Shown in pieces: positions 1 to 63,719 of a stretch of DNA of 64,000 nt. A model generated the notes under the pieces. That model was not told where the DNA came from. It saw only the letters and a program-made list of their open reading frames with translations, and searched no databases. The DNA comes from a virus. How positions within the stretch are numbered: position 1 is the first letter of the stretch; every line of letters begins with the position of its first letter. The DNA is taken from positions 211,301-275,300 of the IMG/VR virus record IMGVR_UViG_3300020122_000238. One strand, 5' to 3'. Made by a program: the position numbers and the translations under genes.

Positions 1-22
1 CCCAGTATAATTTTCCTCGCAT
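1..22 (-). CDS. Start of a gene running off the left edge
   Basis: Only seven codons (MRGKLYW) are visible before the window edge. The start is inferred because the left arm of the inverted repeat at 20-64, read on this strand, gives the same TGTATAGATCCCC-ATG arrangement that starts the plus-strand gene at 62. The two would be divergent genes with mirror-image leaderless promoters. Nothing can be said about function. Confidence 0.35.
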
Positions 23-1810: not shown

Positions 1811-3123
1811 GTAACGTAATCCTGATCGCGGGCCTCAACTACGGAGATGAGGGCAAGGGGACGACCGTCGACTACCTCGCTCGGAAGCACGAAGCGCACA
1901 CGGTCGTCCGCTACAACGGCGGAGCCCAAGCAGGCCATTCGGTGGTCCTGGAGGATGATCGGCACCACACCTTCGCCCAGTTCGGGAGCGCCACCTTCGT
2001 CCCTGGGGTGAAGACGCACCTCAGCCGGCACATGCTCATCAACCCGATCTTCATGATGTCTGAGGAGAAGCACCTCCGCACTGTCGGCGTCGAGGATGCC
2101 TTCGAACGGATGACCATCGAACGGGATGCGCTGATCACGACTCCCTACCATGTCGCCGCGAATCGCATCCGGGAGATGGCTCGCTCAAACCGCCACGGAT
2201 CTTGTGGGATGGGAATCGGCGAGACGGTGAGCAGTCACCTGTTCCACCCTCAAGAGGATCTCCGGATTGGGGATCTGGAAGGGCCAATCACCGCGCGATT
2301 GGAGCAGATCCGAGCGCGGTATTTGTGGGAGCTGGCTACTCTGCACATTCCCGAGTGCAAGTTCCGCGACTACGATTGCATCTGCCCGTTCAAGCATGAA
2401 TGGGGCATGCTCTTGAACAAGAGCCTTCTCCCCTTGATTGTGGGGTTGCTCACGGGATTTCTCAAGCTCCCGCTCAAGGTTGTCGATGAGACCTACCTCC
2501 CGCTCATCATGGGGGAAGGGACCACGATCTTCGAGGGTGCTCAGGGTGTCCTCCTTGATCAGGACTACGGGTTCCACCCCTACACGACCTGGTCCGACAC
2601 GACCTTCAGCAACGCCCTCAACCTGATCGAAGGCTTCTCTGGAGACGTAAGGAAGATCGGGATCGTTCGATCCTACATGACCCGGCACGGGGCGGGCCCA
2701 TTCGTCACGGAAGATGTCACCCTCCAGCTCCCCTCCACGAAGGTTGAGCACAACTCGCTCAATCCCTGGCAATCGAATTTCCGGGTGGGGCATTTCGACG
2801 CCTTCGCGACCAATTACGCCCTCAAGGTGATTGGGGGTGTCGACGAGATCGCCATGACACACTGCGATGTGCCAAGTAGTGGTAAAATTTGTGTTGGATA
2901 CAGGGGAGAGTTTACCCCCGAAGTGCTTCAGGATATGCCGCATGTGAAGCATATTCGTGAAGACCTCGACGTTCGTACGGGTATCACAAATGCTCTTTTC
3001 AATGTCTTTCCGGTGTACTTGACCGATGTGGCAGAGAAGGATTTCATCCCCAAAATTGAAGATTTCGTGGGGACTCCCATCACCATCAAGTCGTACGGCC
3101 CCACGGCCAAGGACAAGCGATAA
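1807..3123 (+). CDS. purA: Adenylosuccinate synthetase family (PurA/PurZ-like)
   Basis: The 438-aa length fits adenylosuccinate synthetase, which joins IMP and aspartate using GTP. The N-terminus has LNYGDEGKG (catalytic Asp and GTP loop) and YNGGAQAGHSVV (catalytic His). IFEGAQGVLLDQDYG and YMTRHGAGPFVTED match conserved family blocks. The usual aspartate loop TTGRxRRCGW is replaced by NPWQSNFRVGHFDA, a change I associate with the phage PurZ branch that acts on dGMP to make 2-aminoadenine DNA precursors; this is from memory and unverified. A hydrophobic insert near residue 200 is unusual. The start ATG overlaps the previous TGA, and the TAA overlaps the next ATG by 1 nt. Confidence 0.92.
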   Translation: MSNVILIAGLNYGDEGKGTTVDYLARKHEAHTVVRYNGGAQAGHSVVLEDDRHHTFAQFGSATFVPGVKTHLSRHMLINPIFMMSEEKHLRTVGVEDAFERMTIERDALITTPYHVAANRIREMARSNRHGSCGMGIGETVSSHLFHPQEDLRIGDLEGPITARLEQIRARYLWELATLHIPECKFRDYDCICPFKHEWGMLLNKSLLPLIVGLLTGFLKLPLKVVDETYLPLIMGEGTTIFEGAQGVLLDQDYGFHPYTTWSDTTFSNALNLIEGFSGDVRKIGIVRSYMTRHGAGPFVTEDVTLQLPSTKVEHNSLNPWQSNFRVGHFDAFATNYALKVIGGVDEIAMTHCDVPSSGKICVGYRGEFTPEVLQDMPHVKHIREDLDVRTGITNALFNVFPVYLTDVAEKDFIPKIEDFVGTPITIKSYGPTAKDKR

Positions 3124-4037
3124 TGGACCCCATCAAGATCATCCTCCCGCCCACCAGGCCCAAGCACGCGACGAACGCGTGGGAAGCCCTCATGGCGGAT
3201 GATGATGGTATCCTTGAGGGTGATACCGCGACCTTCACCTTCGACACGAAGGTTGCGGAAGGGGACCTCTGCGACATCTACCGAGGCACCTACAACGGCC
3301 GCCCGGCGGCTTTGAAGGTGTCCCATGGGGTCGACGTCAACGACCTCGTCGAGCATGAGGCGGACGTCATCCGGCACCTCTTCCCCGCAGAAGAGGCGAA
3401 CGTCGGGTTCCTCCGCTACCTCTCCAAGCTCAGCTACTCCTTCCATGACGAACGGGAGGGAAAGCGGATCAACGTCTTCCCCTGGCTCGGAGAACATGTC
3501 TCCGTCGCCGACATCCTGAAGGCGTATCCAGGCGGCATCGAGTACCAAAACATGGTCTGGATGTTCAAGCGTGGACTGGAAGGCCTCGGATACGTTCACG
3601 AAAAGAACGTCATTCACGGTGCGGTCCTCCCCCCGCATCTGCTGATCCATCCGGCCGACCACGGGGCCAAGCTGATCGACTGGTCCTACGCCGTCCTCAA
3701 CGCGGACGCACGACGGAACAAGGTCCGGGCCATGTCCGCACCCTGGAGGTCCTTCTATGCCCCCGAGATTCCCGGGAAAGGGATCCCGACGGCGGCGACG
3801 GATATCTACATGCTGGCCAAGTGCATGGTCGCTCTGCAAGGCGGGGACGTCACCACGGACGCGATGCCGGATACGACCCCAGAGCCCATTCAGAGGTTCT
3901 TGAGGGAGTGCCTGTCTCCCATGCAGCACCTTCGGCCGAACAGCGCATGGGATCTCGTCGAGGAGTTCAACGCGCTTCTTCGCTCCGTGATCGGCCCGCC
4001 GAAATACTTCAAGTTCGAGATGTCCCCCAAGGTGTAA
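3123..4037 (+). CDS. Protein-kinase-fold protein, probable pseudokinase
   Basis: A kinase-like fold of 304 aa. AALKVSH gives the ATP-binding Lys, FPWLGEH a hinge and KLIDWSYA the DFG-equivalent (DWS). The catalytic loop reads VIHGAVLPPHLLIH, lacking the HRD aspartate and the downstream Asn, so activity is doubtful. Residues 17-29 carry TNAWEALMADDDG, the tag seen at the C-terminus of many other proteins but here ahead of the kinase fold. It starts on TAATG overlap with the synthetase gene. The stop codon (GTG TAA) lies in a GGTGTAAT -10 element for the next gene. Confidence 0.75.
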   Translation: MDPIKIILPPTRPKHATNAWEALMADDDGILEGDTATFTFDTKVAEGDLCDIYRGTYNGRPAALKVSHGVDVNDLVEHEADVIRHLFPAEEANVGFLRYLSKLSYSFHDEREGKRINVFPWLGEHVSVADILKAYPGGIEYQNMVWMFKRGLEGLGYVHEKNVIHGAVLPPHLLIHPADHGAKLIDWSYAVLNADARRNKVRAMSAPWRSFYAPEIPGKGIPTAATDIYMLAKCMVALQGGDVTTDAMPDTTPEPIQRFLRECLSPMQHLRPNSAWDLVEEFNALLRSVIGPPKYFKFEMSPKV

Positions 4038-7224: not shown

Positions 7225-7270
7225 AATTATGAGCCTTTTGGGGATCCACACCCCCAAAAGGCTCATAATT
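7225..7270. repeat. Perfect 19-bp inverted repeat between divergent genes
   Basis: Arms 7225-7243 and 7252-7270 with an 8-nt loop, placed upstream of both divergent promoters. It could be an operator or a barrier between transcripts. Confidence 0.8.
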
Positions 7271-15765: not shown

Positions 15766-16135
15766 GATTCGAGCCCCAGTAAATGACGTCATTCTGAGAG
15801 TACGACCTCGCGTGCCCCATTTCTTCGAGCCACGCGAGACCGTGCCGTAGAAGGGCAGAGGAGACCCCCGACGTCTTCCGCCACGCTTCGAGTTGGGGCC
15901 ACGTCCGAGGCTCCGACAAGTACTTGGAGATGGGGGCAGTCCACCCCACCCAACAGGGGTCCGTGAGAGTTGGAGCCCGCACATCCGAGAGCCGATGGTC
16001 GAACTTGTTCCTGGGAACCCCAGGAACAAGTTCGGGTTTTTTGGTGCGGGAGGGTCTCTTCACAGACGGGACTTTTGCTGCGGGGGCCACGTTGGAAACA
16101 GGGAACCCCAAGTCGTCTTCTGTCTCTTGCCACAT
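15746..16135 (-). CDS. Hypothetical protein with acidic aromatic N-terminus, 129 aa
   Basis: Starts MWQETEDDLGF, a loose relative of the leader or tag composition. A basic linker follows and then a compact helical domain (KYLSEPRTWPQLEAWRKTSG, SALLRHGLAWLEEMG) that could bind nucleic acid. The -10 element TGTAGG is 7 nt from the ATG. A 16-bp inverted repeat lies within the linker-coding region. The 3' end overlaps the convergent gene by 20 nt. Confidence 0.7.
   Translation of the reverse strand: MWQETEDDLGFPVSNVAPAAKVPSVKRPSRTKKPELVPGVPRNKFDHRLSDVRAPTLTDPCWVGWTAPISKYLSEPRTWPQLEAWRKTSGVSSALLRHGLAWLEEMGHARSYSQNDVIYWGSNLKDGTS
16000..16034. repeat. 16-bp inverted repeat inside a reading frame
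   Basis: Arms 16000-16015 and 16019-16034, with T-rich sequence following on the plus strand. It is within the coding region of the minus-strand gene 15746-16135. Confidence 0.75.
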
Positions 16136-18578: not shown

Positions 18579-18634
18579 CCCGCGGATCCCGATCCCAAGC
18601 CGTACTAGTACGGCTTGGGATCGGGATCCGCGGG
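18579..18634. repeat. 56-bp perfect palindrome
   Basis: 28-bp arms with no loop, centred at 18606/18607, between two convergent genes. It has no T tract and would form a cruciform or a long hairpin. Confidence 0.9.
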
Positions 18635-20347: not shown

Positions 20348-20580
20348 CCCCAAGCGAGATGAAGCTGGCGGGCATTCTCCTGGAGATGGCGGCCGACGAG
20401 TTCGGCAATCACAGCTGCAACGACTTCAAGTTGCCACCGATGCCGGAGACAGCCGTGCTCACCCTCCTCACGGAGTACTACGCCCCGGATCCGATCCCTG
20501 AGCTTCAGAGCCCCATCCTCAACGACGCCATCCTCATGTCGATGATGGCCAAGAAGCTCCTGGTGGATGCCGGGCCATGA
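20344..20580 (+). CDS. Hypothetical protein, 78 aa
   Basis: Starts at a GTG overlapping the previous stop and ends in an ATGA overlap with the next gene, so the three form one translational unit. Mostly helical; function unknown. Confidence 0.7.
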   Translation: MTPSEMKLAGILLEMAADEFGNHSCNDFKLPPMPETAVLTLLTEYYAPDPIPELQSPILNDAILMSMMAKKLLVDAGP

Positions 20581-21002
20581 GCACGACGGCATGGGACCTG
20601 ATCCTGAACGATTTCGATGAAATCGAAGACCGGATCACGGCGGCCTGCCTCGCCTGCAAAGCCCGAGGGATTGTTGTCCAGTCTGGCGACTGGGGCGTCA
20701 CCTATGACGAAGACACCCACAAGTGGGTCCAGGGTACACCTTGGCGGGAGAGCACCTCTCTCCCTGTGAATCTCCTCGGCGCCTTGTTGCTCATCGAGAA
20801 CCCTTTCCCCGAGATGTACGTGTACGAGAACCGCACATGTTACGCGCCCACCGACACGGTGAGTAGACTTTTGGGCGTTGGGATCGCCTGGACTCTCTCA
20901 TTCTTCGCGGGGTGGGATGCAGCTCGGTTCCCCTCTTCGGGAGTCAGGACCGCCTATGACTTCGGGCAGCGGTTGGCAACAGAGATTTCATGTCCTCTGT
21001 GA
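20577..21002 (+). CDS. Protein with tag-like N-terminus (TTAWDLILNDFDE), 141 aa
   Basis: The first 15 residues MSTTAWDLILNDFDE match the C-terminal tag sequence but at the N-terminus, as in the pseudokinase at 3123. The rest is an unassigned globular domain with CLACK near residue 22. The final stop lies by a small inverted repeat near 20983-21010. Confidence 0.75.
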   Translation: MSTTAWDLILNDFDEIEDRITAACLACKARGIVVQSGDWGVTYDEDTHKWVQGTPWRESTSLPVNLLGALLLIENPFPEMYVYENRTCYAPTDTVSRLLGVGIAWTLSFFAGWDAARFPSSGVRTAYDFGQRLATEISCPL

Positions 21003-21373: not shown

Positions 21374-21415
21374 AAAAAAGCCCCCGGAGCAGCACGCTGC
21401 TCCGGGGGCTTTTTT
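21374..21415. terminator. Strong bidirectional terminator
   Basis: 20-bp perfect stem (21374-21393 and 21396-21415) with A6 and T6 ends and a 2-nt loop, between convergent genes. Confidence 0.95.
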
Positions 21416-29814: not shown

Positions 29815-30387
29815 ATGTTGACGAAGAAGATCCTGACGGCGACGAAGCATTACCTGAGCAAGACCCCCGAAGAGAACCGCGCCTATGGCCTGGTTACGGA
29901 TGGGAAGATCAACCCCGGCACCTTCCGCTTCATGCCGGTGCTGGCGTGGCTTCGCAAGAAGCCCGAGAGGAGCAGGATTGTCCTCTCGGGCTTCTTGCTG
30001 CGCATGACGGAAGGTGCTTTCGTGGGAGGCCTCGACTGGTCCATCCCGCTGAACCCGGAAACCGAGAACGACGCCGCGAACCTTCTCTCGTCCTTCGGGT
30101 GGGACAATCGAGTGTGGCCTTCAGACCCGGGCTGGCCCGACGATCTGCCGGATGAGGAACACACGCTGCACGGGATGCTCAAGAAGAAGGGCATCTTGGA
30201 GACGCTCACGTTCCCGCCGAAGGAATCGGGCAACAGGGTGATGACGCTTCATGTGCTGAAGGTGTCGAACCCCTTCCCGCTGCCGATCCTGGTTGCTGAT
30301 GAAGACCGTCAGGAGGTGGCCCCCGAGATGCTCTCGAAACTTCGAGAGCTGGTCGCCGACCCGAGCTGCTTCTCGCTGTCCTCCTAG
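29815..30387 (+). CDS. Hypothetical protein, 190 aa
   Basis: TGTAGT (29801-29806) is 8 nt from the ATG. Alpha/beta protein without recognised motifs; an 18-bp inverted repeat encodes residues about 47-61. Its TAG stop shares a CTAG tetranucleotide with the convergent gene. Confidence 0.75.
   Translation: MLTKKILTATKHYLSKTPEENRAYGLVTDGKINPGTFRFMPVLAWLRKKPERSRIVLSGFLLRMTEGAFVGGLDWSIPLNPETENDAANLLSSFGWDNRVWPSDPGWPDDLPDEEHTLHGMLKKKGILETLTFPPKESGNRVMTLHVLKVSNPFPLPILVADEDRQEVAPEMLSKLRELVADPSCFSLSS
29954..29998. repeat. Perfect 18-bp inverted repeat inside a gene
   Basis: Arms 29954-29971 and 29981-29998 with a 9-nt loop. Confidence 0.85.
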
Positions 30388-32286: not shown

Positions 32287-32608
32287 AATGTGGGCTGGGG
32301 GGCCCCTCTACCCTGACTGGTTGGTCATCAACCAACTCGTTGAGACGACGGCAAGACACCCAGGGATACGACAACAATCAGTCATTACCAGGATCACTGA
32401 CGGGTTGGTGTACGTCCGATCAAATACCGGCATCGGAGATATTTGGTATCGAGCAGAGCACTTCGTGGACGAATGGCGGGTGCTTCATACCCCCCTGAAG
32501 AACGATCTCGCTCCCGAGGACTACAGGTGGGAGCCCAAGCCTGTCGAGCCCCCCAAGCCCGCTCCGACGTGGCATGAGCTCCTCATTGACGATGACTTCG
32601 ACATCTAG
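32276..32608 (+). CDS. C-tagged hypothetical protein, 110 aa
   Basis: Small beta protein with a proline linker (EPKPVEPPKPAP) leading to TWHELLIDDDFDI, a strong tag. The tag codons form a 25-bp inverted repeat with those of the convergent gene, and the two stop codons share CTAG. Confidence 0.8.
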   Translation: MPPRMWAGGPLYPDWLVINQLVETTARHPGIRQQSVITRITDGLVYVRSNTGIGDIWYRAEHFVDEWRVLHTPLKNDLAPEDYRWEPKPVEPPKPAPTWHELLIDDDFDI

Positions 32609-32633
32609 TCGAAGTCATCGTCAATGAGGAGCT
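32577..32633. repeat. 25-bp inverted repeat made of two convergent tag coding ends
   Basis: Arms 32577-32601 and 32609-32633. Both encode LLIDDDFD at the C-termini of two unrelated proteins, using the same codons. Confidence 0.9.
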
Positions 32634-33321
32634 GCTCCCAGGCAGTGGGCCAGAAGATGTGGACCCTGGGGGTGGCCGGAGGGGGAGGGGGCTGCGTCGG
32701 CACCCCGGGAAGGTACCTCCCCATCAGAGAGGGGGTCTCGGTCGGATCGAACTCCGGGACTTCAACTCGACGTCGCATGTTTTCCAAAGCCCGCGTGTTG
32801 AAGACCATGTCCCCAACGTGTTCGTGAGCCGTTAACCCCTCGCCGGAAATCCGATCCATGGCGTCGAAGACCCGCTGGTCCTCTTCCTCTCGAAGACGCT
32901 CTTGCGCGAACATCTCTCGTGTCCTCACAACATCCTGCCACACAGTATTAGGGGCAACCTGCACGAAGGAGGGCGTAAACTCCTCTCGGAAAACCGAGTA
33001 CCTGGGGTCAGGAGAGGGTTCTCCAATCCCGTAGACGTTGCGGAACGTTTCTTGGGAGACGCACAGATCCACGTGGACCATACGCTCCATGATCTCCATT
33101 TCCTCCGATAGGTTGAGGGATGAGGGCAGCAAAGGAAGCAACTGTATGGGGGGTGCCGGTAGGATGGGGAGCGCCGGTAGGACCGGTAGGATGGGGAGCG
33201 CCGGTAGGACCGGTAGGAGCCCCATCCTCCTGATCACTTCATTCGCACGCTCACGTATGTCTTGGAGCACCAGATGCTCCAGAACTCGCCGGATGAGAGG
33301 GACACCATCACGAGGGGGCAT
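32605..33321 (-). CDS. C-tagged protein with Leu-Pro repeat, 238 aa
   Basis: Residues about 35-65 are a LPALPILPVL repeat encoded by a 27-bp tandem repeat; a helical middle and a proline linker (TQPPPPPATPRVH) lead to PTAWEQLLIDDDFD. TGTAGG is 7 nt from the ATG. Confidence 0.8.
   Translation of the reverse strand: MPPRDGVPLIRRVLEHLVLQDIRERANEVIRRMGLLPVLPALPILPVLPALPILPAPPIQLLPLLPSSLNLSEEMEIMERMVHVDLCVSQETFRNVYGIGEPSPDPRYSVFREEFTPSFVQVAPNTVWQDVVRTREMFAQERLREEEDQRVFDAMDRISGEGLTAHEHVGDMVFNTRALENMRRRVEVPEFDPTETPSLMGRYLPGVPTQPPPPPATPRVHIFWPTAWEQLLIDDDFD
33155..33220. repeat. 27-bp tandem repeat, about 2.4 units
   Basis: Units of GCCGGTAGGACC and GGTAGGATGGGGAGC encode the Leu-Pro-rich stretch of the minus-strand gene. 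Confidence 0.8.
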
Positions 33322-38257: not shown

Positions 38258-39070
38258 TCAGAGCGATTCCGTCTCAAGCCACCAAAAATGAGGCAAGTAC
38301 TCTGCGGGTACGAATGGAGATTGACGTCCAGCCACTCGCATAGGTTGGAAATTCACCAGAAGGCGAAGCAAGGTTTCGAACTCCCAAGGTTCTGGTGTTT
38401 TGGGGTCCTTGAGCCATTCTTCAATGAAACCGCGCTGCTCGTATCGAAATCTGGACAGAAAAACTCTTGTCTCAAGAAGTTTGTGCGCCGCGACCATCTG
38501 ATCATAGGCAAGAGCATCCAGTCGAGCCTGCATCTCTACAGAGATGCAGGCTTCCGGCACTCGAAGTCGGAAGCGTTCGGGAACAACAGTTTGAGGGTTC
38601 CAGTCTTCAAGACCCAAGGATGCTCGAAGTTCATTGATATAGGACAGCAGAGAAGAAGACAGACGAAACAATTCTCGTGTCCCCTCCACATAGATCCAGT
38701 CCGACGAAAACCGACTGTGGAGGAGTTTTTCGTCCTCCATGTCTCCTGTTACCCATGCCAGAAGCTCAATCTTGCGCGTCGATGACGACTGTATATTGTT
38801 CAGTCGTTGATGTATGTTGGTGGCAAATCCAATCTTTACCACGTCCGCATCAAGTCGAACAATGTATACCCCTGTAGCTTTTGGCCGAGGGTAAATAGGC
38901 GCGTCCAACTGTGCGGGCATCAATGTGTGCATGGCCCTGCGCCAATAAAAAAGACATGCTGCACATGTGAAGGATACCCAATATCCGTGCCCCTCATGCA
39001 CCTCAACGGTCGTTGAGGTGCATGAGGGGCACGGAGGGGTAAGCGCGGGCGGGAAGAAAACAAGAACCAC
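38258..39070 (-). CDS. GIY-YIG endonuclease with N-terminal zinc ribbon, 270 aa
   Basis: An N-terminal CPSC...C-AAC zinc site is followed by GVYIVRLDADVVKIGFATNIHQRLNNIQ and LLHSRFSSDWIYVEGTRELF, a GIY-YIG-type (T5orf172-like) nuclease core. A helical C-terminal region may recognise DNA. The GTG start is 7 nt after TGTAGG. Two inverted repeats (24 and 13 bp) lie inside it. Confidence 0.85.
   Translation of the reverse strand: MVLVFFPPALTPPCPSCTSTTVEVHEGHGYWVSFTCAACLFYWRRAMHTLMPAQLDAPIYPRPKATGVYIVRLDADVVKIGFATNIHQRLNNIQSSSTRKIELLAWVTGDMEDEKLLHSRFSSDWIYVEGTRELFRLSSSLLSYINELRASLGLEDWNPQTVVPERFRLRVPEACISVEMQARLDALAYDQMVAAHKLLETRVFLSRFRYEQRGFIEEWLKDPKTPEPWEFETLLRLLVNFQPMRVAGRQSPFVPAEYLPHFWWLETESL
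38525..38552. repeat. 13-bp inverted repeat in the GIY-YIG gene
   Basis: Arms 38525-38537 and 38540-38552 with a 2-nt loop. Confidence 0.75.
38986..39035. repeat. Perfect 24-bp inverted repeat in the GIY-YIG gene
   Basis: Arms 38986-39009 and 39012-39035, 2-nt loop, coding for the zinc-ribbon segment CPSCTSTTVEVHEGHG. Confidence 0.9.
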
Positions 39071-63658: not shown

Positions 63659-63719
63659 TCGAAGACGACCTATGAGTCAGGTGCCACGGAATGGCACCTG
63701 ACTCATAGGTCGTCTTCGA
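63659..63719. repeat. 28-bp perfect inverted repeat over tag-coding ends
   Basis: Arms 63659-63686 and 63692-63719, 5-nt loop. The minus-strand arm encodes LEDDL and stop of the tagged gene; the plus-strand arm also reads VEDDL and stop. Confidence 0.9.

Follow-up and report, generated by a model that had tools for sequence, protein, structure and literature searches.

Two convergent genes of a large phage end in identical DNA, probably through hairpin-templated mutation

We believe that the matching ends of two convergent genes in a large phage are best understood as the product of hairpin-templated mutation, that is, of template switching at an imperfect palindrome, and we put the probability of this reading at about 0.8. 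The two genes encode the same C-terminal tag with the same codons, and together their ends form a perfect inverted repeat. In a syntenic relative the two ends have diverged from each other and the centre between them is inverted. The same genome holds an excess of perfect hairpins, of inverted loops and of overwritten hairpin arms, and template switching covers the focal site and these other sites together. From these observations we infer a replication mechanism, which probably acted in more than one step.

The DNA analysed here, called the window throughout, is a stretch of 64,000 nucleotides (bases 211301-275300) from a virus record of 275,300 bases. That record carries genes for a portal protein, a family-A DNA polymerase and helicases, so it belongs to a large tailed bacterial virus. 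The comparisons depend on a single syntenic relative, about 84-89% identical to the source virus and represented by two contigs, IMGVR 3300035181_001402 (128 kb) and 3300035180_001778 (350 kb), which are identical across the 15.8 kb that were compared directly. A scan of genome contigs found no relative, a search among phage records found no DNA match to the focal locus, and Rfam gave no match within the window. Neither focal protein has a Pfam or PHROGs family.

The focal repeat occupies positions 32577-32633, with arms of 26 bp around a loop of five nucleotides, and it runs on to 33 nt at 91%. The original prediction gave the arms as 25 bp; they are perfect and one base pair longer. It was right that LLIDDDFD is encoded on both strands by identical DNA. 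All eight codons match: both reading frames end CTC CTC ATT GAC GAT GAC TTC GAC, followed by ATC TAG in the + gene (stop at 32608) and directly by TAG in the − gene (stop at 32605). The two stops share CTAG, again as predicted. The prediction also held that independent convergence could not fix the same synonymous codons. Once equal amino acids and the codon usage of this genome are taken as given, a run of eight matching codons has a probability of 0.004. Taken alone, then, the codon match is only moderately improbable. As a whole, the 26-bp hairpin is far beyond chance; a first-order Markov version of the window contained no repeats even at 13-bp arms. The strength of the observation therefore rests on the whole hairpin and on the comparison with the relative. 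The features discussed here are collected in Table 1.

Table 1. Features of the focal junction, other hairpins and tagged gene ends. Positions are those of the window unless marked genome.
Feature	Position	Strand	Remarks
+ gene, ends PTWHELLIDDDFDI and stop	32288..32608	+	start 32276 or 32288
− gene, ends PTAWEQLLIDDDFD and stop	32605..33321	−	start uncertain
Left arm	32577..32602	+	3' end of + gene, codons for LLIDDDFD
Loop ATCTA	32603..32607		TAGAT (inverted) in relative, between CGAC and GTCG
CTAG common to both stops	32605..32608		holds both arms in the same codon phase
Right arm	32608..32633	−	3' end of − gene, codons for LLIDDDFD
Hairpin, 18-bp arms	29954..29998 (genome 241254)		in called gene; 9-nt loop exactly inverted in relative, GCAGGATTG / CAATCCTGC
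Hairpin, 19-bp arms	7225..7270 (genome 218525)		loop inverted in relative, one substitution
Hairpin, 16-bp arms, loop AAC	16000..16034 (genome 227300)		relative: GTT, imperfect right arm
Perfect 25-bp hairpin	genome 37873-37928 (L003 17873-17928)		relative: inverted loop, diverged right arm
28-bp hairpin	63659..63719		one arm is EDDL-stop end of − gene, other arm non-coding
Tagged + ends	9235, 9859, 20347, 29497, 31731, 32608	+	C-terminal motif
Tagged − ends	22711, 30384, 32605, 63703	−	C-terminal motif

The relative tells us that the identity of the two ends probably belongs to one lineage and is not a conserved element, because its own two ends differ even in amino acids. This comparison comes from one relative and one assembly, since the 350-kb contig stops just before the site. 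The + end there is WHEHLDDEDDFD and stop, against WEQLLKEDDI and stop for the − end. At the DNA level the + end is GAGCACCTCGATGACGAGGATGACTTCGACTAG (HLDDEDDFD and stop in the frame that continues the tag) and the − end is CTCCTCAAGGAAGACGACATCTAG (LLKEDDI and stop). The − protein is 63% identical to its counterpart, which ends PTAWEQLLKEDDI and stop. Just upstream of the tag in the relative's + gene a run of C is one C shorter (L014 5960-5990), which puts the tag out of frame. The cause is a genuine frameshift or an error of sequencing, and the tag may not be translated there. The prediction had named, as the result that would count against it, relatives whose two ends differ at synonymous sites as much as the flanking DNA does; the ends of this one relative do differ. 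The relative has at this site an imperfect inverted repeat with a short CGAC/GTCG core, arms of just 4 bp and diverged sequence beyond them.

The loop is flipped between the two phages: the relative's central GATGACTTCGACTAGATGTCG, read on the opposite strand, gives precisely the window's CGACATCTAGTCGAAGTCATC. The change is local, since about 41 bases of the distal right arm and its flank are the same in both. The two sequences are 23 edits apart; if one reverse-complement copy is allowed, 16 edits remain when the relative is converted to the window and 14 in the other direction. Control copies at the same site leave 21-22 edits (complement-only) or 18-20 (reverse-only). Direct-orientation copying is of some help too, with 19 and 17 edits left. 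A switch on its own never turns either sequence completely into the other, and with 14-16 edits left over more than one step is likely.

Here is how we think such a change would come about. Since each phage has the same kind of tag on both genes, the starting material could have come from the gene ends themselves: where the convergent genes overlap at CTAG, these would already form a short and imperfect inverted repeat with the codon phases aligned. During replication the nascent or the template strand would fold back on itself, and the polymerase would use the loop and a portion of one arm as template and write their reverse complement. The arms would thereby be homogenised and the five-nucleotide loop flipped, while the CTAG overlap would keep the copying in frame. 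Since C-ATCTA-G yields an in-frame stop in either orientation, the flip should do no more than shift one Ile codon (ATC) from one gene end to the other, leaving both proteins tagged. The direction of change between the two phages may have been either way.

The pattern recurs throughout the genome. We counted perfectly paired inverted repeats whose arms reach 15 bp or more and whose loops measure 3-20 nt. There are 23 in 264 kb of this genome, 18 of them inside the window, and the relative has 24 across 340 kb. Five other phages, sampled at 50 kb each and thus a small control of 250 kb, hold one such repeat altogether. A scan for 14-mers found solely as a local reverse complement between the window virus and the relative gave 19 merged events, against 2 in the reversed control and 0 in the complemented one. 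Per 100 kb this amounts to 8.2 events genome-wide and 17.7 within the window; the other pairs of phages, few in number and unequal in identity, gave 0 (T4/RB27), 4.5 (CcrKarma/CcrRogue) and 0 (201phi2-1/Viktualia). A strict search for exact loop inversions returned four sites, with 0 and 0 in the controls. The focal site is absent from these because the relative's arms there are only 4 bp.

The individual sites take several forms. At genome positions 41781 and 164038, both within called genes, one arm has been overwritten, and at 148630 and 262146 both arms change together. The hairpin at 63659..63719 repeats a gene end in inverted orientation, with no second gene on the copied side. An assembly artefact was considered for such loci and set aside: the relative's two assemblies agree at six of the six tested hairpin loci present in both, the focal site and the loop inversion at 241254 being present in one assembly only. 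The hairpin at genome 37873-37928 is the clearest second case of the focal pattern. Further perfect hairpins with arms of 23-26 bp lie at window positions 18579-18634, 38984-39035 and 1602-1653, for which a counterpart hairpin was not found in the relative.

The kind of mutation is already known. Quasipalindrome template-switch mutation in E. coli and yeast (PMC7202029, PMC8604942) likewise makes arms identical and inverts the spacer, and it too produces clustered multi-base changes from a nearby reverse complement, in coding sequence as well. In yeast genes template switching has been shown to homogenise repeat arms and invert spacers (PMC8604942). The present case differs from these in that it spans the ends of convergent genes, so both C-termini change together, and in that it occurs in a large phage at a frequency seemingly above that of a few control phages. 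Template switching can create and maintain hairpins (PMC8794818), and in the RNA genes treated in that work one switch can likewise make a perfect stem or restore pairing, whereas the stem described here is protein-coding on both strands. Nematomorpha mitochondria also carry many long perfect inverted repeats in protein-coding DNA (PMC6649704), but those reach 284 bp in a mitochondrial genome, against 15-28 bp in a double-stranded DNA phage here. A search of the literature for the same phenomenon in phages found no phage case. The frequency in this virus looks unusually high. It is possible, although we would lean against it for now, that the lineage as a whole has an unusually high rate of hairpin-templated switching and that convergent genes overlapping at CTAG let two protein ends be rewritten together and in frame. 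If that is true, a docking tag could pass to an adjacent gene by copying of DNA. On the main reading, already, two protein ends are altered together by one local mutational process, which methods based on selection would misread as convergent evolution. The pair of phages also provides numerous independent hairpins at which template switching could be measured in a naturally replicating system.

The most serious alternative is that the hairpin was selected as an RNA element, a two-way terminator or a stabiliser of 3' ends, with the tag codons constrained to pair. We consider this improbable. The focal hairpin is very stable when folded as RNA (-62.2 kcal/mol, z -9.6), and with a strong stem and a short loop at convergent gene ends it resembles an intrinsic (rho-independent) terminator. 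Inverted repeats are also over-represented in the 100 bp that follow the 3' ends of called genes, where 8 occur and 1.3 would be expected, and scarce inside called genes, with 4 found for 17.3 expected. These counts depend on approximate gene calls; selection for hairpins at gene ends, or against hairpins within genes, could produce them. At least one other convergent junction does have a classical T-flanked hairpin that is conserved in the relative. This is the 19-bp hairpin at window positions 21374-21415 (genome 232674), which lies between convergent genes with A-run and T-run flanks and looks like an ordinary two-way terminator. The focal stem has no T-run in either direction, it is absent from the list of the terminator scan, and it lies entirely inside coding sequence and stops. 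Its strength is not kept in the relative, where the fold at the site reaches -36.8 kcal/mol and is near background (z -1.7, from one relative), and several convergent junctions have no hairpin. The suggestion that the focal repeat doubles as a terminator thus finds little to recommend it, given the missing T-run and the weak stem in the relative.

Another idea, part of the original prediction, is that the tag moves as DNA among gene ends generally, by ectopic gene conversion or as a mobile cassette, and that the convergent pair is merely its latest copy. The tag is found on about 15 or more proteins, some of them present in just one of the two phages, and the eight codons common to the convergent pair are what such movement would leave. 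We nevertheless find general spread very hard to credit. Other tag pairs use the same codon at 190 of their 396 identical residues, where 168 would be expected, and because the pairs are not independent this small excess is no evidence of spread. The residues preceding LLIDDDFD and the codons around the W differ within the focal pair itself, and DNA that encodes no tag has also been copied. Other tag pairs with identical codons were sought, and a second was not found. The relative has a second convergent tag pair (G002 306320/306322, ending DDDFG and DVDFE before their stops), and its two ends have only 7 bp in common. A candidate on the relative's other contig (G002:142781; 32 bases at 88%, E 1e-3) does not fall where convergent genes end, and we treat it as chance. 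What survives of the prediction is local copying between these two ends, to which the differing ends of the relative, the inverted loop and the recurrence of the pattern in the genome all point.

That the same tag was selected independently and codon bias made the ends identical by chance is the least credible reading of all: codon usage is biased and 0.004 is not a vanishing probability, but no other tag pair shares eight residues, the relative's ends are clearly different with the loop inverted, and similar long repeats without tags occur all over the genome.

Template switching would account for how the two ends came to match; the tag itself is a separate matter. A motif of the form (T/N)AW(D/E)x(L/I)Lx(D/E)D stands at the C-termini of many unrelated small proteins, far more often than chance would give. 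Under a strict pattern 7 of the 268 called proteins have it, where shuffled sequences give 0.2, and so does 1 of 1964 internal windows. A looser automatic pattern gives 14 against 5 expected, and a looser list made by hand has 17 C-terminal cases. The counts differ with the pattern, so the exact number of tagged proteins is uncertain, but the tag does exist: some 15 proteins or more carry this short W-acidic motif at an end. It is conserved in the relative wherever the gene is present. Orthologous tags are well conserved as a rule, the focal pair belonging to the more diverged ones. In the DUF3268 protein the tag is located after the domain. We regard it as a putative docking or sorting motif. 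Two proteins carry the motif near the N-terminus (window 20577-21002 and 3123-4037, with MSTTAWDLILND and KHATNAWEALMADDD respectively), and both are conserved in the relative, which suggests that the motif works at either end of a protein.
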